64,000 bases of DNA from Lachnospiraceae bacterium (GTDB lineage Bacteria; Bacillota; Clostridia; Lachnospirales; Lachnospiraceae): contig FZRB01000003.1 of the NCBI GenBank assembly GCA_900199595.1, positions 1-64,000 of the forward strand, given 5' to 3'. A model generated the notes under the pieces. It saw only the letters and a list, made by a program, of their open reading frames with translations. It was not told where the DNA came from and ran no database searches. This document shows positions 16,251 through 35,046 of the stretch, one piece after another. Numbering within the stretch: position 1 is the first letter of the stretch; the number at the start of each line of letters is the position of its first letter. Made by a program: the position numbers and the translations under genes.

Positions 16251-17648
16251 ATGGCAAGTAAAAATATGAGTACAAAACTATATAAAAGTATATCAAAGGT
16301 TTATGATGCACTGGACAGAATGTATTTTACTTCCGGAGGCAGGAATCCGAGAGAGCTAATCGGAGAAATGATACAGAAGGACAAGGCAAAGGTTCTTGAT
16401 ATGTGCTGCGGTACATTTGCAAATGGATATGTTGTAGCCTGTAATAAGCCGGATGCTATGGTTGTGGGACTAGACAGATCTAAGCCCATGCTTAGGAAAG
16501 CTAAGCAGAAGGTGGAAGATAAAGGACTTAAGAATGTGAAACTCATATGCAGGGATGCAACTAATACCGGAATTAAGAGCAATACATTTGACTATATTAT
16601 AATCGGACTTGTGCTCCATGAGTGTAATCCTGATCTGTGGAAGGCAATCCTTTCTGAAGTAAAGAGACTTCTTAAGGATGATGGAAAGCTGATAATTCTT
16701 GATTGGGATATTCAGGAGAGTGTAAGAGGAAAAGTAAAGTTTTCGCCACTATACGTATGTGAGTGTCTGGTTACACCAAAGTATTTCAAAGAGTATTATT
16801 ACTGCGATAAGAGAATATTCTTTGCAGATTATGGATTTGAGCTGGAGCGTATGGAAAGATGTGATGTAACATTTGTTGCATCATTCAAAAAGAAAACTAT
16901 GGAGAGTGAGAAAAAGAACATGAACAATTCGAAAGAAAAACATTCAGAAGAAAGATATTTAGAAGAAACACAGATGGTTAATTATAGAGCTGACAGCATT
17001 CAAAAGCTGGTTGAAAAGCATGGATGGAAAGATCTGGGCGAGTATGACAGAATCGGAGCAGTATATGATTTTGTAAGAAATGATATACTTTTTGGGTACA
17101 ATGCTTCAGATCTTCTCAGTGCCGAGGAAGTGTTGAGGGATGGCTACGGTCAATGTAATACGAAGAGTACATTACTTATGGCCCTTCTTAGAGCAGTAGA
17201 TGTACCATGCAGATTACATGGTTCAGAAGTAAGCAAGTATTTTCAGGAAGGTGCCACCTCAGGGCTGATAGCAAAACTTGCGCCTGAAACAATTGCTCAT
17301 ACCTGGGTAGAGGTATTATTTAAGGGACAGTGGATAGCGCTGGAAGGTGTTATAACAGATGAAGCATATGTTCAGGGAGTAAAGAGCAGGTGCCCGGATG
17401 AAAACTGGGATTATAAAGGCTATGCTATATCCGTACCGAGTTTAAATGATCTTAATCTCGACTGGAATGGTGCTGATCTTTTTGTTCAGAATACTTCAGT
17501 AGTAAAAGACTATGGCGTTTATGAAAGTCCTGATGGCTTCTTTAATGAACATAAGCAGACCTGGAGTAAGCTTAAGGACTTTGCATATATTCATTACGGC
17601 AGAAAAGTAATGAATAAAAATGTTGCAAGGATAAGACAGGCGGTTTAG
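16251..17648 (+). CDS. Fusion of a class I SAM methyltransferase and a transglutaminase-like domain
   Basis: Residues about 45-215 form a Rossmann methyltransferase: AKVLDMCCGTFANGY is the SAM motif I, VVGLDRSKPM motif II, and FDYIIIGLVLHE the motif IV region. After a charged linker (about 215-240) comes a transglutaminase-like domain with catalytic C302 in GYGQCNTKSTLL and H350 in IAHTWVEV. The third residue, normally Asp, is Glu (E365 in WIALEGV). Bacterial transglutaminase-like proteins of this type are often peptidases or amidases. There is no signal peptide, so both activities are cytoplasmic. An AAGGAG ribosome site precedes the start. A 55-codon ORF follows four bases after the stop. 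Confidence 0.8.
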   Translation: MASKNMSTKLYKSISKVYDALDRMYFTSGGRNPRELIGEMIQKDKAKVLDMCCGTFANGYVVACNKPDAMVVGLDRSKPMLRKAKQKVEDKGLKNVKLICRDATNTGIKSNTFDYIIIGLVLHECNPDLWKAILSEVKRLLKDDGKLIILDWDIQESVRGKVKFSPLYVCECLVTPKYFKEYYYCDKRIFFADYGFELERMERCDVTFVASFKKKTMESEKKNMNNSKEKHSEERYLEETQMVNYRADSIQKLVEKHGWKDLGEYDRIGAVYDFVRNDILFGYNASDLLSAEEVLRDGYGQCNTKSTLLMALLRAVDVPCRLHGSEVSKYFQEGATSGLIAKLAPETIAHTWVEVLFKGQWIALEGVITDEAYVQGVKSRCPDENWDYKGYAISVPSLNDLNLDWNGADLFVQNTSVVKDYGVYESPDGFFNEHKQTWSKLKDFAYIHYGRKVMNKNVARIRQAV

Positions 17649-17972: not shown

Positions 17973-18191
17973 ATGATCAGTTTAAATGATGCAAGAGAGG
18001 GTGTTTGCTATCATATCCTTTGGATGTTTGGACAGGCTGAAGATATTAAGGATATGATGCGGTATGAAACCGACAAAATCCTTAAAGTGGTATCAAAAAA
18101 TGAAGGTGGAAATGTTGTTGTGTCCTATGACAACAGACGGTTTGCCATGTCTCCGGATCTGGCATACTATATAAAAATTGCTGAGGTATAA
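17973..18191 (+). CDS. FeoA-like domain protein (72 aa)
   Basis: The small protein fits the FeoA SH3-like barrel: an opening SLNDAREGVCYHI strand, a middle helix, then ILKVVSKNEGGNVVVSYDN and RRFAMSPDLAYYIKI, the typical closing strands where FeoA has 'xRxALSxxxAxxI'. FeoA proteins modulate FeoB ferrous iron transport. No feoB is near, so this is an orphan copy that may act in trans or have another regulatory job. A GAGGGGG ribosome site lies 9 bases before the ATG. A TATAAT at 17882-17887 could be the -10 box of its promoter. The stop codon lies in a bidirectional terminator. Confidence 0.6.
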   Translation: MISLNDAREGVCYHILWMFGQAEDIKDMMRYETDKILKVVSKNEGGNVVVSYDNRRFAMSPDLAYYIKIAEV

Positions 18192-18209
18192 AACCTCAGC
18201 AATTTTTTA
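18178..18209. terminator. Bidirectional terminator between convergent genes
   Basis: TTGCTGAGGT pairs with ACCTCAGCAA. T-runs follow on both strands (AATTTTTT on plus, AATTTTTAT on minus), serving the FeoA-like gene and the 1268-residue gene that converge here. Confidence 0.85.
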
Positions 18210-18211
18210 GT

Positions 18212-21200
18212 TTAATTCATACCGGGAGCGCCGAGTCCGGGGTTTTGTTTTTCCGGAGCAGGTGCAGCTACAGGTTTCATAGATGCTTTAAGCTTGTTTG
18301 CCTGTTCAGGAGTGAATGCATTAGGATTCTTCTCCATAAAACTGCTCAGCATATTTTCCTGATTTATGGTTACGCCATGCTTCTTGGCAAAACTCTTCAT
18401 CTGCTTAGCGGTTGAAGCTATCTCGTCGATCTTTGCATTCTTATCTGCTACATTCGGGTCATTGATCTTATTAAATACTGTCATCATAGAATTTTCAAAG
18501 CCCTTATTTACCAGATTATCGAAGGATGTTTCTGTCATCTTTTTATAATTTCCGGATGCATAAAGTTCTTCTGATAATCCTTTGATCTGCTCGGCAAATA
18601 TTTTTCCTTCTACTGAATTATATTCTGCTTTGAATGCTGTTTTTAACTTAGAATCAGACTGACGCATTTCTCTGACCTTATCAACCTTGATTGGCTGTTC
18701 CATCTTAGTTATTTCAGACTTAAGTCTCTTGTTAAAAAGACCATCTATAACCTTTGATGTGAACTTTTGTTTATCTTTAAATTCGTCATGGGATAATGAG
18801 TATACGTTATCATTAATACAACAATTTACATACTCAACGGCATTTGTGGATACAGAAGAGTAGTCGGCTGTATTATTGTTATATGTCTGTTTATTTGCTT
18901 TTTCTTCGTCCTTATATTTCCAACGTTTCTCATCGTTTTTAATCTGGTCGTTATACTTTTCGGCTTTAAGACGTTCTGATTCATTCATGAGATCCTTGAA
19001 AGGAACAGACTTCATTTCACCATTAACAAACATTGTTACATTTTGTCCTGTAAGATAATTATCATTATCAACAGCGAGGTAGGTGTTACCCGGGTCTATG
19101 GCATAATCAGTAAGATTATCCAGATCTTTATAGTCCTCCTTATCAAGGAAGAATTTATTCTTAGGTTTTGTGGTCCAGCCGGCTGCCTGATAGAACTTCT
19201 GGGCTTTCTCCTGTGCTATTTCAATTTTATTCAGCATCTCTTCGTTACGGGCTGCCAAAGCGCTTATCTTGTCCTGAGAGAGACCGAGTTCCTTCAGCTT
19301 ATGAACTATTAACGAATTAGGATCCTTGAATTCCGCCACTGATTTCTGAAGACTCTTATATGCTTCATGATCATAATGAAGCAGTGACGGAATCTCCAGA
19401 TCACCATCCTTATTGATAAGGCTCTTAAGAGCTTCATGATTCTTGGCCTCTTTTGCCATACGAATATCTATATTATCGCCATAAACAGTACGGTACATAT
19501 ATTTGACGGACTTTATGAAGCAATCCATGATAGGATTATCATGCTTGTCTGCTACCGTGGTAAAATCAAACTGACTTTCCAGCTTTTCAAGTTCATCTAC
19601 CAGATCACCCAGTTTCATTATCTGTTCATCGGTGAGGTTGGTCTTGAAGAACACGTTGTCTCTTGAAAGAGTCTTTCCCTCCTGTTTGGCTGCCTCTCGA
19701 AGAGCATCCTGTTCTTTTTTTGGTCTATACCAAATTTTCTGTATGGCATTACTTATATCACAGTATTTTTGCAGTGAATAATCTATGAGATTATTATCAT
19801 TATTTAAGTCTTTATTAATATGCCATTCCGGATGACTATTAATCTCTTCAGATATTTTTGCTTTATCCTCATCAGATAAATTGTCCTTTTTTATCTTGAT
19901 TCTGTCCATTTTATAATTCATACGTATATCATCCGGAAAGCTGATATACCCCTCACCTGTCCATGTAAGTCTTGGACCAAAAGAAAGACCGCCCCTGTTG
20001 GTCAGGTCGACTTCTCTTTGGCTGTAAGGAATTTTAACTATCGGGATTTCAGCCTTGCGAGGAGGTGTAACTGTATCCACTCCGAAATAATGACCAAGAA
20101 CAAATTTATATAGAGCAGAGTCCTTCTTTACAACTGTATCCATGGCAGGAAGGAACTGGTTTCTCTGAGGTTCTCCTGAAGGTTCGTTAAAAGCCTCGGC
20201 AAGAGATACCGCATCAAAAGACATATCATTATCGTATGCCTTGACAGTTTTTATTACTATATTTCCTGTCTGCTTATCTATATAATGATCACACTTGAAA
20301 TTACGACCATGTCTGTCCTTCTGAAGGGTTAGAGTATCTGCTGCCTGAAGTCTCAGAAGCTGCCTGCTAGCCTCAGGAGAATATACTATTTTCTTTCCGG
20401 TCTTTTCGGCCATTTTCATAAGGTCGATAAGCTCGAGACCTTTAGCTGCCTCGCAAACAGTACATAGCTGATTAACAGCTGTACCATCACGCCTTGTGAA
20501 CTTGACAAGCATAGTTTTTGATTTAGTTATAACATCATCGAAACCGAGATGTTCTGCAACTCGTGATGTAGCTGTATTATTGATTGCAGCCTTATCATCA
20601 CCATTCTGCATTTTTTTCGCACTCATTTGACCGAAGAGTTCTACTTCCTTACCAAGGGTAACACGGAAGAGGGTTTCCATTTCTTTATCAGACAGATTCT
20701 TTATCGAATCATAAAATACCTTGTCATCTTTCTCGTTAAGGTTAAGCTTCATTTTCATCCACTGAGCGGCTGTGAGCTTTTCTGTCGGAGCCATTTTATT
20801 ATTTTCGTGAAGATGACCTGATTCTTCAAGAACCATTTTTCTCATCTGAAGAGCCTGTTTTTCAAGCGCATTTTCAGCGTTTGCAATCATCTCATCTATG
20901 TTTCCTTCAATCTTAACGCCTACAAGAGTGTTATATATTTCAAGCTCAGCAAATATATCATCAAAGTTATGTGCAAAATATGATGAAAACTTGTCAGCAA
21001 GTGCATCTCTTTTTTCATCAGATGCATTACTCAGAGCATTTGAAAGATTGCTTAAAAGCTTATTACAATTTGCATAATCAGCATCAGTGATTTTTGAAAT
21101 TCTTTCTTCTACCTTGTTAGGATCACCACCGGCCTTCTTATTCTGCTGGCTTACCTCGAGCTGTTTCATACGGCGGCTAAGGAAACCCTGCAGGTTCTCA

Positions 21201-22018
21201 TTCAGGAATGGAAGATTCTCTTTGAGATAATATTCATTTCCATCATCACCCTTAAGCTTGATTCTGTAAACATCGGTAGAATTACCCTGATTCTGCCACT
21301 CCAGTTCAGCAACTTCATTTGAACTGATCTGGTTAACAAGATTCCAGGAGTTGAGTCCCGCCTTGGTGTTAGCGTCCATTTTATCGAATTCAATAGCGCC
21401 TTCCTTGATAGAATCAACTATTGTCTTCATACTGCGTTTCATCTGCTTGGCATTATTAAGAAGATCAACGACTCTTCGACGTCTTCTTTTTCCGGCTGAA
21501 CTGGATGGATTTCTGTTGTCGGCATAGTTCTGAGCCGCGGTAATGAATTCATCGAAGGCAGTATTGATCTTTTCCATATATGCCTTCTCATTGAAGCTTC
21601 CATTTTCATTAATGAATTCCGCTAGTCCTTCACTGAGAGTATTGTTCAGAGCTGCCATACTCTTTTTAACCCAGTCCATTTCTGTAGAGGCATGACGGAA
21701 TAATCTCCAGTCCTTTTCCAGAAGTTTACTTCCGTTTAACATGAACTGACCCATCATCTGATTTGAACCTTTGAAGTCATTTATAGTTACATCTTCACGA
21801 AGAGCGTTTTTAGCTTCATTTCTTTTGGTCTTTGCTTCTGATTCATTATAGTCCTTTTTTTCTTTAATTATCTTGAGCTGCTCCGGCTGAAGTTTCTTTG
21901 GATATACGACATAATAATTATCATTAAGTCTGATAGCTCGCTGTTTTTCTATTTCAGTAAGCATTGCAAAAGCTGCTGCATCTAATAATCTCTGATTTTT
22001 TTTCTTTTTTGGTGCCAT
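18212..22018 (-). CDS. Large uncharacterised protein (1268 aa) with a PI3K/Fam20-like kinase signature
   Basis: I do not recognise a named family over the full length. A kinase-like core can be traced: a beta-rich N-lobe with STDVYRIKLKG and YYLKE (about 247-267, K266 as candidate ATP lysine), TSRVAEHLGFDDVITKSKTMLVKF-type strands (about 484-507), a catalytic-loop-like QKDRHGRNF (566-574) and a metal-motif-like YDNDMSF (595-601). DRHxxN followed by DND-x-SF resembles PI3/4-kinase-like and Fam20-type phosphotransferases. Long charged helices surround the core, the N-terminus is basic (MAPKKKKNQR), and the C-terminus is Pro/Ala-rich. There is no signal peptide or membrane helix. AGGAG precedes the ATG. 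It is the second gene of an operon with a GNAT gene 34 bases upstream. Confidence 0.7.
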   Translation of the reverse strand: MAPKKKKNQRLLDAAAFAMLTEIEKQRAIRLNDNYYVVYPKKLQPEQLKIIKEKKDYNESEAKTKRNEAKNALREDVTINDFKGSNQMMGQFMLNGSKLLEKDWRLFRHASTEMDWVKKSMAALNNTLSEGLAEFINENGSFNEKAYMEKINTAFDEFITAAQNYADNRNPSSSAGKRRRRRVVDLLNNAKQMKRSMKTIVDSIKEGAIEFDKMDANTKAGLNSWNLVNQISSNEVAELEWQNQGNSTDVYRIKLKGDDGNEYYLKENLPFLNENLQGFLSRRMKQLEVSQQNKKAGGDPNKVEERISKITDADYANCNKLLSNLSNALSNASDEKRDALADKFSSYFAHNFDDIFAELEIYNTLVGVKIEGNIDEMIANAENALEKQALQMRKMVLEESGHLHENNKMAPTEKLTAAQWMKMKLNLNEKDDKVFYDSIKNLSDKEMETLFRVTLGKEVELFGQMSAKKMQNGDDKAAINNTATSRVAEHLGFDDVITKSKTMLVKFTRRDGTAVNQLCTVCEAAKGLELIDLMKMAEKTGKKIVYSPEASRQLLRLQAADTLTLQKDRHGRNFKCDHYIDKQTGNIVIKTVKAYDNDMSFDAVSLAEAFNEPSGEPQRNQFLPAMDTVVKKDSALYKFVLGHYFGVDTVTPPRKAEIPIVKIPYSQREVDLTNRGGLSFGPRLTWTGEGYISFPDDIRMNYKMDRIKIKKDNLSDEDKAKISEEINSHPEWHINKDLNNDNNLIDYSLQKYCDISNAIQKIWYRPKKEQDALREAAKQEGKTLSRDNVFFKTNLTDEQIMKLGDLVDELEKLESQFDFTTVADKHDNPIMDCFIKSVKYMYRTVYGDNIDIRMAKEAKNHEALKSLINKDGDLEIPSLLHYDHEAYKSLQKSVAEFKDPNSLIVHKLKELGLSQDKISALAARNEEMLNKIEIAQEKAQKFYQAAGWTTKPKNKFFLDKEDYKDLDNLTDYAIDPGNTYLAVDNDNYLTGQNVTMFVNGEMKSVPFKDLMNESERLKAEKYNDQIKNDEKRWKYKDEEKANKQTYNNNTADYSSVSTNAVEYVNCCINDNVYSLSHDEFKDKQKFTSKVIDGLFNKRLKSEITKMEQPIKVDKVREMRQSDSKLKTAFKAEYNSVEGKIFAEQIKGLSEELYASGNYKKMTETSFDNLVNKGFENSMMTVFNKINDPNVADKNAKIDEIASTAKQMKSFAKKHGVTINQENMLSSFMEKNPNAFTPEQANKLKASMKPVAAPAPEKQNPGLGAPGMN

Positions 22019-22052
22019 TTTTAATTCTCCTATTTATATCTATTACAATTAC

Positions 22053-22619
22053 CTATTCAATTGGTACACCGCTATAATATTCAACATCTGTAACTGTGAA
22101 TTTATTTGGGAAATTCTTATAGCCTTTGGATATTCTGGCCTGAGCTATACGGCGGTTTTCTTCATCGTTGCCAAGAGAAACAGCGCTGTCAACATCAGCT
22201 GACAGAATAAATACCTGTCCATCCTGTGTATCGCCGTCATGTACATATTGGAAACCGTTTTCGAAGAAGAAACCGGAGATGTCGCTGTCCTCGATAGTTT
22301 CAGCATCAAGAACTGGTACATAAGCATAAAGTGTTTTAACACCGCAGTCTTTGGCGATATTAAAACATTCCTCCAGCAGCCTGCTTCCTCCATCATTGAA
22401 TCTTTTTTCCGGATCTATCCATAGCCATTTGACAACAAACTGATTATCATCCATGGTTAGGATAGCAAGTCCCATGGGTTCAAACAAAGAATCATCAGTA
22501 TCAACTGCACCGAGAAGAATAGCTCCATCGTGCATATAATGTTCGAACTCATCCGGAACATATCTTAGGAATAAATCCTTGATTTCTTTTTGTATTTTGT
22601 TAATTGCAATTACCTCCAT
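22053..22619 (-). CDS. GNAT family N-acetyltransferase
   Basis: The 188-residue protein shows a GNAT fold: strand VVKWLWIDPEKRFNDGGSRL (about 63-82) corresponds to motif A, where RFNDGG stands for the acetyl-CoA-binding R/Q-x-x-G-x-G/A loop. It is followed by the helix LLEECFNIAKDCGV, strand TLYAYVPVL and a motif-B-like region ending FFFENGFQYV. The substrate is unknown. A full AAGGAGG ribosome site fixes the start. It is the first gene of the operon with the kinase-like protein, so it may modify that protein, its substrate, or act with it. The promoter must lie inside or next to the repeat element at 22667. Confidence 0.75.
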   Translation of the reverse strand: MEVIAINKIQKEIKDLFLRYVPDEFEHYMHDGAILLGAVDTDDSLFEPMGLAILTMDDNQFVVKWLWIDPEKRFNDGGSRLLEECFNIAKDCGVKTLYAYVPVLDAETIEDSDISGFFFENGFQYVHDGDTQDGQVFILSADVDSAVSLGNDEENRRIAQARISKGYKNFPNKFTVTDVEYYSGVPIE

Positions 22620-22666
22620 AGTAATCCTCCTTTATAGCGCTGATTACAAAAATGTATACATTTATA

Positions 22667-22980
22667 AAATGACATAAGTGTCAAAAGTCAAAAAGCGTTC
22701 TTGCTTGCAAGAAAAGCTTGTTGACTTTATGACACGCTGAAACATGAGGAAATAGCAATTTTCGTAGAAAATTAGCGGTTTCCGAATGTTTCTAGGATTG
22801 CGAGAACAGTCCTCGATTATGCAATAATCGAGGATCCGAAGGATGCGTTCTGCAAAGCAGAACCAAGACTTGCAAAGCAAGGCTTGCATATCTCCTCTGG
22901 AGATATGGCACGAATTGCTTTAGCAATGGAGCAATCCGTATGTCATATGGTGTCAAAAGGTACTTTTGACACCCACATCT
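22667..22980. repeat. Multi-hairpin non-coding repeat element, copy A
   Basis: This 594-base gene-free stretch holds a chain of short-loop hairpins: an outer pair ATGACATA (22669-22676)/TATGTCAT (22939-22946); a stem GTGTCA-AAAGTCAA with TTGACTTT-ATGACAC (22678-22735); AATTTTC/GAAAATT (22757-22773); CCTCGATTAT/ATAATCGAGG (22811-22833); GTTCTGC/GCAGAAC (22847-22863); CTTGC/GCAAG (22869-22881); CATATCTCC/GGAGATATG (22887-22907); ATTGCT/AGCAAT (22914-22927); and GGTGTCAAAAGG/ctTTTGACACC (22949-22973). The left 63 bases recur inverted at 43.9 kb and the last 28 bases recur at 45.85 kb. The rest, 22981-23096, is AT-rich with nothing recognised. Confidence 0.8.
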
Positions 22981-23096
22981 AAAAAATCATAATCTATTAT
23001 ACAAGTAAGACCGCAACAAAAGCGTAACAAACTTTTGGAAAATATCTGGAAAAATAATAAAATTTTCTTATAGAAAAATAAAAAATATTATTTTTG

Positions 23097-25445: not shown

Positions 25446-25997
25446 ATGGAAGAAAAGAAGGAAGTAAAAAATACGCAGGCAGATTCCGGCAACACTAAAA
25501 AAAAGAAGAAGCGTTCGGCTGTCTCATTTATGATCGAGTTCTTTATAAAGATAGGCGTGACAGCATTAGTTGTATGGCTGCTTTGTCTTTTTGTCGTTGG
25601 AGTTTACGTCGTACATAGTAATTCGTCTTACCCGATGATCAAGGATGGGGATCTGTGTCTGACTTATAAATTTGCCAGGCTGAATTCCGGAGACGAGATT
25701 GCTTATGTTCGTGACGGCAGGATAAAGTTTGGAAGGATAGTTGGTATGCCCGGTGATACGGTGGATATGGTGGGTAATAACCTTGCAGTTAACGGTTATG
25801 GTGTTTTCGAAGATGCGGTCTATCCCACAACAGCGGAAGGGGCATCTATCACACTCCCTTATACAGTTCCTCAGGATACATATTTTGTACTAAATGATTA
25901 CAGGGACGATATAGCGGACAGCAGAACTTATGGCGGAATACCGAAGGCTGATACCAAAGGAAAGCTTGTTTTACTTCTCAGACGAAGAGGCTTTTAA
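25446..25997 (+). CDS. Signal peptidase I-like pilus assembly protein (SipA-like), lacking the catalytic lysine
   Basis: The 183-residue protein has a Lys-rich cytoplasmic tail, one membrane helix (about 34-56) and an S26-type fold outside. Box B reads SNSSYPMIKDGD in place of GxSMxPTLxxGD: a Ser is kept (S60), Met is changed. Box D reads FGRIVGMPGD where active enzymes have IKRVIGLPGD, so the general-base Lys is Gly (G96). Streptococcal pilus loci carry a comparable SipA/LepA with altered catalytic residues that acts in pilus polymerisation and not as a peptidase. First gene of the pilus operon. Box E region is NDYRDDIADSRTYG. Confidence 0.8.
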   Translation: MEEKKEVKNTQADSGNTKKKKKRSAVSFMIEFFIKIGVTALVVWLLCLFVVGVYVVHSNSSYPMIKDGDLCLTYKFARLNSGDEIAYVRDGRIKFGRIVGMPGDTVDMVGNNLAVNGYGVFEDAVYPTTAEGASITLPYTVPQDTYFVLNDYRDDIADSRTYGGIPKADTKGKLVLLLRRRGF

Positions 25998-26074
25998 ACA
26001 GGAAATATTAAATGTGTTAATTATTGCATCTAATGCAATATAAATATAAAGATTTACGTATGGAGGTATGTAAT

Positions 26075-27373
26075 ATGAAAGGAAAAAGAACCAAGAAATT
26101 GCTGGCGTTATTCATAACGGCAGCCATGGCAGTGATGATGATGGGAATCTTTGCCAGTGCAGCAGCTAACTATGATGAAACTGCTCCTGAAGATGGGAAA
26201 AAAGAATTCCAATTTACTAAGTATCTGGTGATACCGGAATCTATGGGTGTACCAACATTAGAGTTTACCTTTACTATTGCTCCCGGTACTGCGGTTGAGG
26301 GTGATAGTGCTAACGGTCTTTTACCAATTTATGCAGGTAATGATTCTACCAAGGTTACTGGTACACCAACTATCGCTGATTCGGCTTCATTCTCTTCAGC
26401 TGATTCTACAACTAATGGTTTAGCTGATGATGGAATAGCAAATAGTACGGAAAAAAAGTATGCTTCAAAGACTGTAACAGTTAATTTTGCAAATGTTAAG
26501 TTTAAAGAGCCGGGTGTATACAGATGGATTATTACAGAGGATGCAGTTACAAATGGAGCGGCTATAGATACAACCCCGAGAACTCTTGATGTTAATGTAC
26601 AGGATGATGGAGGTTCACTTAAAGTTAAGAGTTATACGATGTATATGGGCAATAATATCCCTGCACAACCTATGAATCCTGATGATACATTAACACCAAA
26701 GCATGCAAATGCTGCAAGTGCTGGAGATAAGGTTGATAGTTTTGTAAACAGTTATCCTTCAAATAATTTATATATTGGTAAGAAAATTTCCGGAAATCAG
26801 GCTTCAAAGGATAAGTATTTTAGAATAGTTGCCACATTTACTAATGTTCCAAGTGGTACAACTCTTAATGTTGATCTTACTAATGCTACAAATACTAAGA
26901 TACCTGAGAATGTGAATGGAGCTACTGTTATAGATACTGCTGATATTACTGAAGGAGGATATTTAAATCCGAGTGCCATTACATTTAACAGTGTAACAAC
27001 AAAGACAATTGTATTCTATCTTCAGGGTGACCAGTATGTTAATATCATGGGTCTTCCTAAAGATGCAACTTATGCTATTACTGAGGGAACAACTGCAGAT
27101 CCCGGCTATGTAAAAGATGGATACACAAGTAGTCCGGCAAATACAAAGAATTTTGAAATTGGAACAGATCCGAATAAGGTGATATTTACAAATGGAGTTA
27201 CCGGAACAATAGTTGATACTGATATAAAAACAGGTTTTACAAATGAAAAGAATGGTAATATTCCTACAGGCGTTATCATTTCCCTGTCAGGACTTATTGT
27301 TGTTGGTATTATAGCAGTTATTGGCTTCGCATTCTTTAGTGCTCGTTCAAAGAGAAGATACGAAGAAGAATAA
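26075..27373 (+). CDS. Major pilin, FctA/Spy0128-like, sortase-anchored
   Basis: The ATG at 26075 with GGAGG 9 bases before it gives a 432-residue precursor; the longer frame from 26024 lacks a ribosome site. A signal peptide (about 1-33) precedes an FctA-type pilin domain (about 40-190; EFQFTKYLVIPE, VYRWIITED) and a second beta-domain (about 220-390; LYIGKKISGN, YAITEG). The end has the sorting signal IPTG near residue 395, a membrane helix and the tail RSKRRYEEE. Such pilins are joined by sortase into fibres and stiffened by internal Lys-Asn isopeptide bonds. Followed after 36 bases by its sortase. A small hairpin ATTGCAT/ATGCAAT (26023-26039) precedes the ribosome site. Confidence 0.88.
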   Translation: MKGKRTKKLLALFITAAMAVMMMGIFASAAANYDETAPEDGKKEFQFTKYLVIPESMGVPTLEFTFTIAPGTAVEGDSANGLLPIYAGNDSTKVTGTPTIADSASFSSADSTTNGLADDGIANSTEKKYASKTVTVNFANVKFKEPGVYRWIITEDAVTNGAAIDTTPRTLDVNVQDDGGSLKVKSYTMYMGNNIPAQPMNPDDTLTPKHANAASAGDKVDSFVNSYPSNNLYIGKKISGNQASKDKYFRIVATFTNVPSGTTLNVDLTNATNTKIPENVNGATVIDTADITEGGYLNPSAITFNSVTTKTIVFYLQGDQYVNIMGLPKDATYAITEGTTADPGYVKDGYTSSPANTKNFEIGTDPNKVIFTNGVTGTIVDTDIKTGFTNEKNGNIPTGVIISLSGLIVVGIIAVIGFAFFSARSKRRYEEE

Positions 27374-27409
27374 TCAATAAGAAGATTCATAATCTGAGGA
27401 TGGATTATT

Positions 27410-28114
27410 ATGAAGCGTTTTTGGATATGGATGAATATTATATACGAGAAACTGATGTCAGTCGTATTTCTTATAGCGCTTCTTATAGTTGTTTATGGTC
27501 TTTATGATGCATGGTATGTATATAACAAGGCCGATGATGACAGTTATCTGAAGTATAAACCGATTCTTGGTGAAGGTGTTCCTAACGATGCACCACTTAC
27601 CGAGGATTACGTGGCATGGATAACTATAGACGATACAAATATCGATTACCCTGTTATGCAGGGTAAGAACAACATGGAATACCTGAATATAGATCCGTAC
27701 GGTGAGTATTCCTTGTCAGGAAGTATATTCCTGGACAGCAGAAACAGTGCTGATTTTACCGATGATTATTCTATACTCTATGGACATCATATGGCGTATG
27801 GGAAAATGTTTGGTGCACTGGATGATTATATGAATAAAGAATATATGAATGCACACAGTACGGGACAGCTGATAGTAGGACGTGACGACACCAAAGCATA
27901 TGATTTAGGTGTATTTGCATGTATGAAGGTAAATGTATATGACAAGCATGCTTTAGATCCGGATTCTCTGGAAAATGTAGAGAAATTAATATCGGAAGAA
28001 GCTTCTGTTATCAATACCTCCATAGATAAAAGTAATCATATAATAGTACTTTCTACATGTATTGAACCGGTGTCAACCAACAGACTATTGGTGTTCTGCT
28101 ATTTATATGAATAA
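27410..28114 (+). CDS. Class B sortase, pilin polymerase
   Basis: The 234-residue protein has an N-terminal membrane anchor (about 15-35) and a sortase barrel. Motifs: ITIDDTNIDYPVMQG, SIFLDSRNSADF (class B), catalytic His in ILYGHHM (126/127), Cys C217 in VLSTC and Arg R225 in STNRLLVF. These form the His-Cys-Arg triad of a transpeptidase that cuts between Thr and Gly of the IPTG/VPTG signals and links pilins through lysines. Its place between the major and minor pilin matches streptococcal FCT loci with a class B-type pilin sortase. GAGG ribosome site. Confidence 0.92.
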   Translation: MKRFWIWMNIIYEKLMSVVFLIALLIVVYGLYDAWYVYNKADDDSYLKYKPILGEGVPNDAPLTEDYVAWITIDDTNIDYPVMQGKNNMEYLNIDPYGEYSLSGSIFLDSRNSADFTDDYSILYGHHMAYGKMFGALDDYMNKEYMNAHSTGQLIVGRDDTKAYDLGVFACMKVNVYDKHALDPDSLENVEKLISEEASVINTSIDKSNHIIVLSTCIEPVSTNRLLVFCYLYE

Positions 28115-28168
28115 AACCAAAATGTACGGCATTCGGCCGGATGATTAAGGGATAGATGGATTCGCCAT

Positions 28169-28996
28169 ATGAATATATTTAATAACAAAAAAACATATAT
28201 TCAACAGAAGAAAAGCTCCACCGTTGGAAGGCTCTTTATAGCCTTCCTTATGGTGATGAGTTTTGTTTGCATTTTTGACAACAGATTTGTTGTGAATGCT
28301 GACTCTTCCTACAGTCCGATAGATGTTCATATTTTCTTTGACTGTAAAGAGGTAGATGGAGTAGATAAGAATTCGTATAAGATAAGTATAAAATCAGAAA
28401 AGGAACAGGCTCCTGTTCCAAAGATTGATACAATAACAGTTAATAATTCGGGAAAAGGTGAGTTCGTAGTAACGGTTTCGGAGCCTGGTACTTATGAATA
28501 TCAGATATATGAGATAAAGGGCTCTGAAGAAAGCATTAAGTATGATGAAACTAAGTACGATGTAATAGTCGGTGTATTTTCAAGTGAAAATGGAGAATTA
28601 AGTTATTCGGTTGCAGTAACACTTGCAGGAACGGATGACAAGCCGGAGAGTGTTGCATTTGAAAATGGCACAGCAAGATCGAAAAAGATACCGGAAACGG
28701 ATGCAAATAAAGAAAAAACAACAGAAGCAATAACGACAGAAGTAAAAACAGAAGAAACAACAGAAACAACAACGGAAACTACAATAGAAAAAATTACAAC
28801 GGAAGAAAAAACAGAGGATGTAACTGTGGAAGATGATACAGAAGCTCCTCCTAGCAAAATAGAAAAAACTAATAACATTTGGGGAAAGATTAAGACAGGA
28901 GATGAAACAAAGGTTGTACTAGTGATGATCATATTGGTTGTATCACTGGCGGGTATTGTAGTTGTTGGATTAAAGAAAAAGCACAAAGAAGTATAA
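28169..28996 (+). CDS. Minor pilin with FctA-like domain and Thr/Glu-rich stalk
   Basis: The 275-residue precursor has an internal signal peptide (about 20-46), one FctA-type domain (about 50-165; DVHIFFDCKEVDG, FVVTVSEPGTYEYQIYEI) and a Thr/Glu linker (about 180-235) with repeated TTE units. A KTGD sorting-type signal (near 243-250) precedes a membrane helix and the tail KKKHKEV. The linker length suggests a spacer or wall-anchor subunit; a basal or linking role is inferred from position between sortase and adhesin. The ribosome site before 28169 is weak, so the true start could differ by a few codons. Confidence 0.78.
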   Translation: MNIFNNKKTYIQQKKSSTVGRLFIAFLMVMSFVCIFDNRFVVNADSSYSPIDVHIFFDCKEVDGVDKNSYKISIKSEKEQAPVPKIDTITVNNSGKGEFVVTVSEPGTYEYQIYEIKGSEESIKYDETKYDVIVGVFSSENGELSYSVAVTLAGTDDKPESVAFENGTARSKKIPETDANKEKTTEAITTEVKTEETTETTTETTIEKITTEEKTEDVTVEDDTEAPPSKIEKTNNIWGKIKTGDETKVVLVMIILVVSLAGIVVVGLKKKHKEV

Positions 28997-29013
28997 GGAG
29001 AAATATATAGACT

Positions 29014-32000
29014 GTGAAAAATACGCTTAAAAACAGAATAATAAGCGGATTTGCTATACTTTCGATCATTATTTCTACAATTGCACCTGTAAATGTGGCA
29101 TTTGGAGAAGGTGATCCGGAGGCTTCTTTGTATGCAGTAATGTCTGAAAAATCGGAGGTTGCAGAGGTAGAATTATCAGTTCTTAGTTCTTCTGATGATT
29201 CTGAAATAGAAGTCGTATGTGCAACTGAGACAGATGCCGAGATAGAGGCTGATGAAGGACTGGAGGTAATGGAGAATTACCTGATCAATGACCGTGAGGA
29301 AAATCCTGACGAGACCCTTTACGTAAAGGCAGAGCAGGATGAGACGGTGTCACTCCTTCCTCGTGAAAGTATGTCTATTTACAGCGTTGAAGATGATGAA
29401 CTGGATGAGGTGATTATCGAGGATATCGCTAAGGAAGATGATCCATGTGAAATAGATGAGGATGTAATAGGATTTGCGCTTGTTAAGGATTCGGGATACC
29501 GTCATCTGAATTTTGAAATGGATTCAGTGACACTTGACGGCATGATGCCTAAGAATGCTACTGCAGAAGCTGTAGATGTGACGGATAAGTACAGCTCTGA
29601 TTCTGGAAGTATTATAACTGCTACATTCACAGATGCTTCATCCACAGATGCAGATATAGATGAAGTCAGAACTAATGTATTAGCGGCATATGATATAACC
29701 ATCAAGGATGGAAAGAACGAGTATCAGCCGACTGAGGAAAAGCCTATTGATGTGACGATTTCGGACCCGGGAATTAAATCCGATTCTGATATCCATTTGA
29801 TTCATATCAAGGATGATGGCGAGGAAGAAGAAATCACAGACTTTACCCTTGAAGATGGTAAGGTTAGTTTTAGTGCGGTCGGATTCAGTGTTTATAAGAT
29901 AGTGGAGGATCTGTATCAATATGACTTACTAAAATCATTAGATGAACTGGGTTCTGAAAGAGCAGCCGGAGGTTTTTATCTGTTCTATGGAAAGAATAAC
30001 CTCTTCACCAAAACTGTAAATAATAAAGGTGCATTGAATGAGACTACTAAAACTACAGATGCAGCAATTTGGTATTTTGAGCCGGATGGAGCTAACTATA
30101 AGATTTATACTAAGGAAAATGATACAAAACAGTACATTAATACAAAAAGTGGAAACGAAATTAAACTAAACAGTGCTGCAGGGGATTCTTTTAAAATAAG
30201 TCCATCTACTGTAAGTGATGCATTTTATTTCAAAAAAAGTACGGAAAATAAATGGCTGCAGCATTCAAATGGCGGAGGTGGAATCAGATATTATACTGAT
30301 AAAAATAATGAAACGAATAGTAGCATAAAACTGTGTTATGCTGATGCTTTCACGGATGCTGATCCTTTTGGAATTGATGGTTATTCCTTTGGACTAATGA
30401 GCTATGAATCCGGCAGCGTAGGCAATGCTTTTATGGCAGATCCTACCACTAATTATCAGGCGATGGTTGATTTTGTTGTTCGTAGTTCGGGTGGTGCTGA
30501 AGTTTATCAGGTGTCGGAAGAATCAGATGTTACCATGTGGATTTTCCATGCAGTAAGTGGTGGTTATAAATTATCTGCTGATGTAGATGGTGCTACAAAA
30601 TATCTCAAGATAGATGCAAGCGGATTATCTCTTGTTGACGAAGCAGAAGCTTCTACGCTTAGTGTAACGGCTGGAACCGGAGATGATGCTAATAGAGTTC
30701 AGATAAAAGCTGCTAATGGATACTACTTGAAATATGATGATAATGCAGGGTTTATTGCCAGCAAGAACACAGATAAAACCTGGCTTAATTTTATCGAAAA
30801 GTCTGACCTGCCTCAAGAAAACTTAGTTACTTATTCTGCTGAAAAGGTAGGCGTTTCAGAAGTTAAAAAAGGTCAGAAAGTAATTCTTTACACGAGAGTA
30901 TGGAATAATCAAGATTCAAAATATGAATTCTATGCTGTAAATCATCTTGGAAAGCTTATTCCATGTTATGAACGTGGTGATGATATCATGTGGGTTGGTA
31001 ACCAGATAAATACTCTTGAATGGGAGTTTACAGAGTATTATTGGGAAGGAACAGAAACTCCAAATCATTACTACGAATTATATAATCCATATTCCCAAAA
31101 GTATCTTGCACCTCAGATTTCTACTGATGTTCTTCTTTCGGATGAAAAAATTGGTATTAATCTTCCGGGACGCAGGGATGGTGAATACTATACAGACATA
31201 ATAGCCTGGGATACAACAAATTATACATATGCAGGTGTTAAGGCGGAAGTTAATGATGATGATAAAACAGGTGAGATAGTTGCTACAAAAAGAAAAGAAG
31301 CAGGAACCTTCTACTTTGCTATAGTAGAACCTATTGAACCTACTCTTACAGAAGTTGATACCATTACAAATGCACAGTTTGGTATCACCATGAAGATGGC
31401 TGACCTTGATAGTAAAGAACAGATGTCTAATATTATTGGAGGAGGTACCACAGAAAAGTATAATCCCGGTTTGCTTTCTACTAATTTGATAAATGGCTAT
31501 CCAACATGTACGTCAGGACAATCCCTTAGTGCTCTATATACAAACGCAAGGGTAGTAGATAATCTCTTTATATCAAGTACCTATGAGGCCAGCGGTTATT
31601 TTGTATTTGATAGCTGTCAGAATTTTGCAACACTTGTTAAGGAAGATGGAACTATCGGTGATAAATTTACTGTATATAGGGAACTGGGTACAACGGACAT
31701 TACTGAAAAAACCACCCTTAAACATGGACAATTTTTCCCTTATGATACTATACAAGCGGGAAAATATGCATCTAAAAATGGTTCAAATCTTTATAGTGCT
31801 TTGGCAGATTATAATCATGCAAATGTTGGTATTCTTGATGAAAAAGATCCAAGAAAGTATGAAAGACTTCTTACGGTCGGGGATAAGCCAAACTATTATA
31901 ATGCTATGGAACTTGAAGCAAGTTTCGTTCAGACCTCAAATGGATGTGATGCATGGGACCATCCTATAATCTTTGAATTTACCGGAGATGATGATTTCTG

Positions 32001-35000
32001 GCTTTATGTTGATGATGAGCTTGTTATAGATCTTGGTGGTATTCATTCTGCGCTTGCTGGAAGTATAAACTTTGCGACAGGCGAAGTTGTGGTGAATAAA
32101 GTACCCACTACAATTAGAGAATTATTTAAGAAGAACTATAAGGCAAGAAATCCCGGTGTTGCAGATGATGTAGTTGAAGCATATTTAGATGATATTTTCG
32201 ATGGAGAGATTTTTAAAAGATATTCATCACATAAAATGAAGGTATTTTATATGGAGAGAGGCGCCGGAGCTTCAAATCTTCATATGAGATTTAATCTGAG
32301 CTATGTAAAGGAAGGAAATGTTATCTTAAAAAAAGAGGTTACGGGAACTAATAAGCTGGATTTCGATCTTGTAGAGTATGCATATCAGATATATTACAGA
32401 GATCAAGTAGATGCAACTGCAAACTTAAAGGGTACGCTTCTGACAAATGATGATGCAAATGTAAATGTCAAATATCAGAATTCAACGAAATCTGTAGATT
32501 ATATTGATCACGGATATAAGCCGGTCGGGTATGGTGAAGGTCCCGGATATGATTCTGTTTATCTTCTTACTCCGGGAAGAAATGCTGTAATTAATTTCCC
32601 TACAGATACATTTGATTACAGAATTGTGGAGATATCACTTAATAAGGATATTTATAATAAAGTTACTATTGATGGTGGTTCTTCTGTAATAACTCCTGAG
32701 TCGGAAGAATTAGGTGAAAATCGATATAATTATGATTCGGGCTGGTTATCCGTTAAAGATAATTCCCATGCAATATTTAATAATCAGGTGGATGAAAACG
32801 GATTAAAGACTCTTAAAATCAGGAAGGAACTATACGATTCAGAAGGTAATTTACTTACGGAAGACGATGATCCAACAACCTATGGATTCCGTCTGTATCT
32901 TTCTAACGGTGTTAGTCAGGATCTTGAACTTGCTAGCATGTACAAATATCGTGTAAAGGATGAAAATGACTTTTATTGTTATTGGGATGCCCCAACGGGA
33001 AGGTTCCAACCTACGGGATATACATCTTTTGAAGCAATTCCGGAAGTTATACCTGAAGGTCAACATGGCCATACACAAGAGGATTGTACATTTGAGACAT
33101 CAATGAATGGTACTATATCTGAGATACCTCCAAGTTATACTATTGAAGTACCAATAATTCCGGTAGATATGAGTTTTATGCTTGAAGAAAGGACGGGAGA
33201 AGTCCCTCTTGGATATAAGCTTATTGAATATGAGAGAACTGATCTTAATGATGGAAAAGATCATAAATCACAAGATCCTATCAGCGGGGTTATAAGGGCA
33301 CAGGAAGATCCTGTACTTGTTGTCAGAAATAAACGAGGCTGGGAGATAGAGGTAGAAAAGGAGTGGAGTGATAAGGACTTCACATCTGACCATGAAGCTA
33401 TATATACTGCAGCTTATGTTGGAGATGATTTGATCCCCGGCACTGTTAAGAAGATGAAATATCCTACAACTTCTTTACGTTACTTCTTTGATGATCTTGA
33501 TAGTATTAAGAAAGATAGTACATTTTCAGATTATTCCATTAAAGAGGTTATTGTTACTAATCCTGTTATGGCTTCTACTAATGAAGATGAAGTTGATGTA
33601 GTTTCTTATGATTCCTTAACACTTGTTAATCAAGATGATTTTATTCAGATTAATTCAAAAGTAAAGGGACATGATACTTCGGAACCATTCTGGTACAATG
33701 TTAATTATGAACAGGGAGAACCTGTAGGCGATGACATTGTAGCAGGTGGATATACCCGGGAGGATACAATAGAAAATACTCGTGGAGGCGGAATAGTTAT
33801 TTCACTTTATAAGTGGGGCTCGCAAGGCTCTTCGACGAAAACACCGCTTCCTGAAGGTGAATTTACACTGACAGAGAACGGAGTAGAAGTAGGAACATTT
33901 GCATCAGATAAACGTGGAAGAATAACTATTCTGTACGAGTTTAAATATAATATTCCATATGTTCTTACGGAGATAAAGACTCCTGAAGGATATATAGGAC
34001 TTCCGTATCCGGTAACATTCCATGTTAATGACTCAAACGAAATTATCTGGAATGATGCAGAAGAAGGAGACTGGGTTTATTGTTATAAATCTCAGCATAC
34101 ATCTCCCGATAATAAAGAAATTGTAGCTTATGTTGATACATTTAATAAACCGGTTGAATTCAAAGTATTAAAGATTGATAAAGATAATCAGACATGGGGA
34201 CTTCCAGGTGCTCACTTTGCTTTATATAAAAGTGTTAATAGTGGTCTTGGTGGAGAAGTAAAGGATTACAATCCTATGCCTGGTTATACAGATCTTGTTT
34301 CTGATGCAAGTGGTGTGATTCCTAAGGTGGATAATACTTTGAAACCTGGAAAATACTATCTTAATGAAACGTCTGCACCAACCGGTTATGAGTGTGATTC
34401 CAGTACGGATATAGTATTTGTTGTAACCGATCGAAGGGAAATAGAATTTATAAGCCCAACTGGTTCCGGTACGGGTATTTCATACAAAACAGATGATGTT
34501 GGTGATAAAGTTATCTATGAAGTGGCTGTTCCAAATAAGAGAGTTGGTAATCAGAAACTTCTTACAGTGACCAAAACTGTTGATGGAAGTTATGGTAATA
34601 AGTATAAAAAGTTTACATTTACCTTTAATGTTACGGGTGCAAGTAAATCAGAAGAATTCATTTGGTCAATAAATGGAAAAGAGCAGACTACAAAGCTTCA
34701 TCCGGGTGATACATTTGAACTGAAACACAATGATTCCGTGACAATAGAATTTGATTCTGAACGTGAGGTAACTATATCTGAAGATAGTGAAGGATATACA
34801 CCTAAGTTTGTATTAAGTACGGATACTGCAGCAGAAGCAGGTGCTCAGAATACAGACACAAGAACATTTACGGTCAGCAGTGATACATTACTTTCAGTTA
34901 CCAATACTTTGGCGGGAACAGTTCCTACCGGAATCTGGCTTCCTATCAAAGTGCTTATTGCTGCAGGCGTCATATTACTTCTTGCTATTATTTTCACAGT

Positions 35001-35046
35001 GAGAAGAAGTAGGAAACTTAAGAAGTATATAAAAGAGAAAGAGTAA
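29014..35046 (+). CDS. Giant pilus-tip adhesin with fibro-slime and Cna-B/SpaA domains (2010 aa)
   Basis: A GTG start with AAGGAG 12 bases upstream is followed by a signal peptide (about 1-31). Next come an acidic N-terminal region with a beta-domain (about 190-300), beta-trefoil-like repeats (about 320-600; AAGGFYLFYGKNN), and a fibro-slime domain (about 790-1100) with the hallmark EFTGDDDFWLYVDDEL and VIDLGGIHSALAG. Several Cna-B/SpaA-type domains (about 1100-1900) follow, for example VLKIDKDNQTWGLPGAHFALY. The sorting signal VPTG (near 1969), a membrane helix and a basic tail end it. It is the last gene of the pilus operon and by size and domains the tip adhesin, likely binding glycans or host/plant-fibre surfaces. 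The target cannot be told from sequence. Confidence 0.88.
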   Translation: MKNTLKNRIISGFAILSIIISTIAPVNVAFGEGDPEASLYAVMSEKSEVAEVELSVLSSSDDSEIEVVCATETDAEIEADEGLEVMENYLINDREENPDETLYVKAEQDETVSLLPRESMSIYSVEDDELDEVIIEDIAKEDDPCEIDEDVIGFALVKDSGYRHLNFEMDSVTLDGMMPKNATAEAVDVTDKYSSDSGSIITATFTDASSTDADIDEVRTNVLAAYDITIKDGKNEYQPTEEKPIDVTISDPGIKSDSDIHLIHIKDDGEEEEITDFTLEDGKVSFSAVGFSVYKIVEDLYQYDLLKSLDELGSERAAGGFYLFYGKNNLFTKTVNNKGALNETTKTTDAAIWYFEPDGANYKIYTKENDTKQYINTKSGNEIKLNSAAGDSFKISPSTVSDAFYFKKSTENKWLQHSNGGGGIRYYTDKNNETNSSIKLCYADAFTDADPFGIDGYSFGLMSYESGSVGNAFMADPTTNYQAMVDFVVRSSGGAEVYQVSEESDVTMWIFHAVSGGYKLSADVDGATKYLKIDASGLSLVDEAEASTLSVTAGTGDDANRVQIKAANGYYLKYDDNAGFIASKNTDKTWLNFIEKSDLPQENLVTYSAEKVGVSEVKKGQKVILYTRVWNNQDSKYEFYAVNHLGKLIPCYERGDDIMWVGNQINTLEWEFTEYYWEGTETPNHYYELYNPYSQKYLAPQISTDVLLSDEKIGINLPGRRDGEYYTDIIAWDTTNYTYAGVKAEVNDDDKTGEIVATKRKEAGTFYFAIVEPIEPTLTEVDTITNAQFGITMKMADLDSKEQMSNIIGGGTTEKYNPGLLSTNLINGYPTCTSGQSLSALYTNARVVDNLFISSTYEASGYFVFDSCQNFATLVKEDGTIGDKFTVYRELGTTDITEKTTLKHGQFFPYDTIQAGKYASKNGSNLYSALADYNHANVGILDEKDPRKYERLLTVGDKPNYYNAMELEASFVQTSNGCDAWDHPIIFEFTGDDDFWLYVDDELVIDLGGIHSALAGSINFATGEVVVNKVPTTIRELFKKNYKARNPGVADDVVEAYLDDIFDGEIFKRYSSHKMKVFYMERGAGASNLHMRFNLSYVKEGNVILKKEVTGTNKLDFDLVEYAYQIYYRDQVDATANLKGTLLTNDDANVNVKYQNSTKSVDYIDHGYKPVGYGEGPGYDSVYLLTPGRNAVINFPTDTFDYRIVEISLNKDIYNKVTIDGGSSVITPESEELGENRYNYDSGWLSVKDNSHAIFNNQVDENGLKTLKIRKELYDSEGNLLTEDDDPTTYGFRLYLSNGVSQDLELASMYKYRVKDENDFYCYWDAPTGRFQPTGYTSFEAIPEVIPEGQHGHTQEDCTFETSMNGTISEIPPSYTIEVPIIPVDMSFMLEERTGEVPLGYKLIEYERTDLNDGKDHKSQDPISGVIRAQEDPVLVVRNKRGWEIEVEKEWSDKDFTSDHEAIYTAAYVGDDLIPGTVKKMKYPTTSLRYFFDDLDSIKKDSTFSDYSIKEVIVTNPVMASTNEDEVDVVSYDSLTLVNQDDFIQINSKVKGHDTSEPFWYNVNYEQGEPVGDDIVAGGYTREDTIENTRGGGIVISLYKWGSQGSSTKTPLPEGEFTLTENGVEVGTFASDKRGRITILYEFKYNIPYVLTEIKTPEGYIGLPYPVTFHVNDSNEIIWNDAEEGDWVYCYKSQHTSPDNKEIVAYVDTFNKPVEFKVLKIDKDNQTWGLPGAHFALYKSVNSGLGGEVKDYNPMPGYTDLVSDASGVIPKVDNTLKPGKYYLNETSAPTGYECDSSTDIVFVVTDRREIEFISPTGSGTGISYKTDDVGDKVIYEVAVPNKRVGNQKLLTVTKTVDGSYGNKYKKFTFTFNVTGASKSEEFIWSINGKEQTTKLHPGDTFELKHNDSVTIEFDSEREVTISEDSEGYTPKFVLSTDTAAEAGAQNTDTRTFTVSSDTLLSVTNTLAGTVPTGIWLPIKVLIAAGVILLLAIIFTVRRSRKLKKYIKEKE

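Follow-up and report, generated by a model that had tools for sequence, protein, structure and literature searches.

A giant kinase-like protein paired with a GNAT-fold partner in Lachnospiraceae and its possible role in conflict

In a 64,000-nt stretch of a Lachnospiraceae genome (contig FZRB01000003.1; hereafter the window, to which all positions refer), a gene for a giant kinase-like protein of 1268 aa (18212-22018) and, directly upstream, a gene for a 188-aa GNAT-fold protein (22053-22619) lie on the minus strand, with the sizes, positions and orientation given in an original prediction made before any database search. The two open reading frames (ORFs) are separated by 34 bp, a spacing that, with the shared strand, suggests co-transcription; an AGGAGA sequence lies 7 bases before the ATG of the larger one. 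The reading that we favour, giving it a little less than an even chance, is that the giant is an atypical kinase controlled by its GNAT-fold partner and drawn from a fast-exchanging family of giant proteins used in conflict.

The three motifs on which the kinase assignment was built are present in the claimed order: YYLKE (residues 263-267), DRHGRN, the catalytic loop (568-573; 20300-20317, minus strand) and YDNDMSF, the metal motif (595-601; 20216-20236, minus strand). We aligned the protein with relatives from 19 of 21 loci (L032 and L048 were omitted as near copies); two of the resulting 20 rows are contigs cut short that do not reach the catalytic loop. The N-lobe segment at residues 245-271 (21206-21286, minus strand) runs from a GNSTDVY loop (245-251) to YYLKEN, and both this loop and K266 were unchanged in 20/20 rows. 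D568, R569, H570, N573, D596 and D598 were unchanged in all 18 rows covering them; because of this invariance the motifs cannot be attributed to chance. Apart from R569, these are the residues whose conservation the original prediction had proposed to check. Inside the metal motif, position N597 was variable (12 N, 3 Q and 3 H in 18 rows).

A structure model of residues 214-672 (20003-21379, minus strand), built from the 18 alignment rows left after omitting the two cut-short ones, predicted the strands of an N-lobe, then ~230 residues that are mostly helical, and a C-lobe. This predicted two-lobed fold, with the Lys, the catalytic Asp/Asn and the metal Asp in order, has the features of a protein kinase-like fold, and an assignment to the PI-kinase/Fam20/HipA type is well supported by the model, in line with the PI3K/Fam20-like fold originally proposed. 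At the level of family profiles, the 1268-aa protein gave no match to PF00454 (PI3/PI4 kinase) at E<=10, and three of five distant kinase-core proteins scanned exceeded the cut-off of this family. HipA_C was matched at E<=0.1 by 4/20 members of the alignment (best E 1.7e-4), the 1268-aa protein not being among the listed matches. Ratios of non-synonymous to synonymous substitution (dN/dS) for the kinase were 0.09, 0.16, 0.16 and 0.21 in four pairs and 0.60 in a fifth, almost identical pair with very few changes; a sixth pair yielded no estimate.

The second pillar of the favoured reading is the gene pairing. A GNAT gene adjoins the kinase gene in 21/21 loci of relatives, directly upstream on the same strand in 19 and divergently oriented in two, so the conserved GNAT partner that the original prediction had proposed to look for in gene neighbourhoods does exist. 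With the predicted kinase fold and the invariant catalytic and metal residues, this means that none of the outcomes named in advance as refuting that prediction was observed. Three pairs of loci are near copies (L041/L048, L031/L032 and L042/L045), which leaves about 18 independent ones. We aligned 20 GNAT proteins, 18 of them kinase partners and two encoded beside other giants, and all matched Acetyltransf_1 (PF00583) at E<=0.1 (best 1e-6); the 188-aa protein itself did so with E 0.0024 and 18.6 bits, under the Pfam cut-off of 20.7. The coenzyme A (CoA) loop of GNAT enzymes usually reads R/Q-x-x-G-x-G/A. Six of the 11 close GNATs lack the first glycine, among them the 188-aa protein, where the loop reads RFNDGG; the other five have it. 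A tail of the form [VI]E[YF][FY]SG closes 11/11 close GNATs; among seven distant partners three keep it, two have a near form and two are without it. A fold that is kept, a donor site that is loosened and a tail that is fixed suggest that in these proteins binding may matter more than acetyl transfer. Four pairs gave GNAT dN/dS values of 0.09, 0.10, 0.21 and 0.30; the almost identical pair with the kinase value of 0.60 gave 1.24.

The same arrangement could be taken for an exported effector and its activator in the style of HlyC-HlyA or CdiC-CdiA, in which the GNAT would acylate lysines of the giant so that it acts on another cell. Besides the position of a small GNAT-fold gene immediately before a very large one in 19/21 loci, this explanation gains from ApxIC, described in the part of its source consulted (PMC8339906) as GNAT-like without the usual CoA elements, as the CoA loop is degenerate in the six close GNATs; from cdiC, placed between cdiB and cdiA in the excerpt consulted (PMC8510554); and from lipase-like GHSRG and NCTTF motifs noticed by eye in sister giants. 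We nevertheless consider it unlikely. No histidine is conserved in the GNATs and 3/11 close ones contain none at all, leaving the catalytic histidine of the His/Asp pair known from toxin-activating acyltransferases without a counterpart, and hence the partner is not an acyltransferase of the HlyC/CdiC kind. A Pfam scan gave no RTX match. As to export, this genome had no match to the sheath protein (PF04984) or FlhA (PF00771) and one match to EssC (TIGR03928), below cut-off; type IV secretion was not searched for. Of the 14 genomes of the family that hit the kinase core strongly, 4 have the sheath and 7 have FlhA, close to the family background of 53/299 and 154/299, and EssC exceeds its cut-off in 6/24 carriers. 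Sheath-type injection, flagellar export and the type VII secretion system were accordingly dropped as routes, being absent or under cut-off here and not tracking with the kinase core in the family.

The distribution of the pair and its kin bears on the favoured reading of a GNAT-controlled kinase used in conflict. In the genus, 11/61 genomes match at E<=0.001 and six, this one included, carry a full-length protein, the other five being 46-49% identical to the 1268-aa protein. The 21 loci come from named genomes (18 Lachnospiraceae and one each of Eubacterium sp., Lachnoclostridium sp. and Clostridia bacterium), with a ruminant gut site named in the titles of 7; best-segment identity is 44-48% in eleven loci (L028-L038) and 29-45% in ten. 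Since loci L028, L030, L035, L037 and L038 agree in content with the five genus genomes, the two sets overlap. A family search with the kinase core found 37/299 genomes at E<=0.001, 14 of them with a hit at E<=1e-14; the remaining 23 matched weakly, in frames of 106-501 aa as far as they were listed, and were not counted. A sample of the phylum gave 2/398 genomes with a match at E<=1e-8, both from the same family. Our searches turned up no phage, plasmid or viral relative.

This genome encodes six proteins with the kinase core, of lengths 774-1602 aa; on one contig very large proteins follow one another, and two of these have the core. Across the wider kinase superfamily few core proteins have a GNAT next to them (6/34; in four of the 34 the contig ends on the upstream side): such adjacency was seen for one of the five other core proteins of this genome, which has its GNAT upstream, 1/7 from the genus, 4/21 from other genera and not for the single L030 tandem kinase. 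In L107 and L108, two loci from other genera, several GNATs and giants are encoded one after another; the largest giant has 2413 aa. Several further features of these giants were noted. In the L108 array, a 2286-aa giant (L108:7739-14599) matches phage family phrog_9248 of unknown function (E 1.3e-8). Two kinase cores stand in tandem at L030:2366-6361 and L091:6626-10609, and also in L026, L096 and L102; in the L030 tandem the first catalytic loop reads DRNTAN and the second DRHQDN. Several giants with and without the core in L084, L085, L087, L091 and L094 start with a few residues resembling MKEVE, MKENE, MKEID or MREVE, possibly a shared tag. By reading, a 1461-aa giant (L005:1746-6131) has its N-terminus in common with the neighbouring kinase giant and an NCTTF motif that recalls NlpC/LRAT-type enzymes.

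Comparison of loci L039 and L044 revealed an exchange of the kinase gene. The outer flanks are 97.1 and 97.6% identical and the GNATs 96-100% in 150-base blocks, and at the GNAT-kinase junction identity drops, to 61-87% over the kinases; the divergence continues for ~520 bases beyond the kinase. About 480 bases before the GNAT are likewise divergent, and in this space L044 carries an extra GNAT-like gene and a giant. When set against polymorphic toxins, one pair has a divergent kinase beside a near-identical GNAT, and no immunity gene was identified. Two points weigh against generalizing from this case: three other near-identical pairs have no exchange inside the kinase gene, and one of the L039/L044 loci is a metagenome assembly. 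Separately, the L037 and L038 kinases are 92-98% identical over their last ~180 residues and down to 17-23% in middle blocks, a sign of mosaic exchange.

Taken together, the exchange of genes, their arrangement in arrays and their patchy occurrence point towards a role in conflict, inside or outside the cell. In the mechanism that we propose, the GNSTDVY loop and K266 would hold ATP, D568-R-H570-x-x-N573 would form the catalytic loop and D596 and D598 would bind the metal, while substrate and regulation would probably be set by the helical stretch after the K266 strand and by the helical C-terminal half. The kinase would be one of a set of giant, mostly helical Lachnospiraceae proteins without signal peptide, some of which have the kinase core. 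Made just before the giant, the GNAT would be its dedicated partner, most likely binding it, perhaps through the conserved C-terminal tail, and controlling it as chaperone or modifier. The set would turn over by whole-gene exchange at fixed sites, as do systems directed against other cells or mobile elements. A broader version, possible but rather improbable in our view, is a Lachnospiraceae conflict system in which GNAT-fold chaperone-activators serve giants with PI4K-like kinases or other catalytic domains, partly in GNAT-giant arrays, with cassette exchange and an undescribed route or trigger. If the proposal is true, gut and rumen Lachnospiraceae would contain PI4K-like giant kinases that have so far escaped annotation, with some under a GNAT-fold partner. 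The GNAT fold would then have a new use, the atypical kinases of bacteria would gain a new branch, and the ways in which these bacteria cope with rivals, phages or protozoa would become open to testing.

As improbable as an exported effector, in our estimate, is a cytoplasmic defence or stress kinase that the GNAT-fold partner keeps inactive until a phage or plasmid enters. The start of the protein (MAPKKKKNQRLL) reads as lacking a signal peptide, as had been claimed, and together with the failure of the three export markers to exceed their cut-offs, the presence of a full-length protein in 6/61 genus genomes and the one gene exchange, this would suit such a kinase. However, a defence library gave no good match: the best E value was 0.011 for the 1268-aa kinase and 0.0006, to a candidate model, for the L030 tandem kinase, and the 188-aa GNAT had none. 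Several flanks read as housekeeping genes and not as defence islands. Least probable is an ordinary regulator, that is, a HipA-like or PI4K-like kinase of central physiology with the GNAT as second modifying enzyme, which the kinase dN/dS, at 0.09-0.21 in four of the five pairs for which it could be estimated, and the HipA_C matches would allow, but which sits badly with a patchy, multi-copy gene near other giants that was exchanged once and has no neighbour recognised by reading as a HipB-like DNA-binding gene.

Outside the kinase core the giant is largely helical. An N-terminal helical module (residues 85-222; 21353-21766, minus strand) yielded a profile that also finds other giants, with and without the core; it matches seven places in this genome; in three of these the frame gave no core hit, and two of the three matches are weak (E 4e-4 and 8e-4 with the iterated profile). 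Judged by this iterated profile, the module appears to tie the giant proteins together. We also considered it as a docking site for the GNAT, a GNAT neighbour being found in 4/6 remote kinases with the module vs 2/28 without it (Fisher p 0.004), and dropped the idea when the iterated profile also matched proteins without a GNAT neighbour. The C-terminal half (residues 634-1250; 18269-20119, minus strand), modelled from 16/20 alignment rows, is predicted to be mostly helical and has no relative found among solved structures.

The kinase gene is flanked by the GNAT gene on one side and by a convergent 72-aa ORF (17973-18191) on the other, with a terminator-like hairpin, a pattern match only, between this ORF and the operon (18173-18207, unstranded). 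The repeat element said to stand at the promoter does exist, as a multi-hairpin repeat upstream of the operon (22660-23010, unstranded). It has 62 matches in its own genome (itself and pieces counted; six of at least 280 bases) and is therefore not specific to the operon but dispersed and incidental; on contig C43, a kinase paralogue has a piece of the repeat at the upstream end of its gene. Elsewhere in the window, positions 25446-35046 read as signal-peptidase-like, pilin-like and sortase-like genes and a 2010-aa surface protein, a content that suggests a locus for a sortase-assembled pilus or adhesin, and one ORF at 16251-17648 reads as an apparent fusion of a methyltransferase with a transglutaminase-like region.

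We found no paper describing such a GNAT-giant kinase pair among titles and the starts of abstracts, which is compatible with the claim of an undescribed system. Helicobacter pylori CtkA has a chain of ~280 residues and is not known to have a GNAT partner. Type II phosphatidylinositol 4-kinases (PI4K II alpha/beta) share 13-16% identity with the 1268-aa protein over the aligned part; the latter differs in that it comes from a bacterium, has over twice the length of the solved chains and is encoded next to a dedicated GNAT. The nearest likeness found, compared by description only, is the Legionella protein Lmor_1975, which has a helical insertion, alongside the AnkK/MavQ neighbourhood of PI-kinase-like effectors. 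According to the portion of the source consulted (PMC9758233), the insertion of Lmor_1975 spans ~150 residues, and the protein carries further helical domains and falls into a cluster close to FAM20/CotH together with LepB and AnkK. Its insertion differs from the helical stretch of the 1268-aa protein in being described as between the lobes; Lmor_1975 is a predicted effector, whereas the 1268-aa kinase has no demonstrated export route. The HlyC/CdiC systems, as far as the excerpts consulted describe them (PMC8510554, PMC8339906), likewise place a gene of GNAT or related fold beside that of a giant partner; unlike them, the GNATs described here have no conserved histidine and their giant partner has a kinase core.
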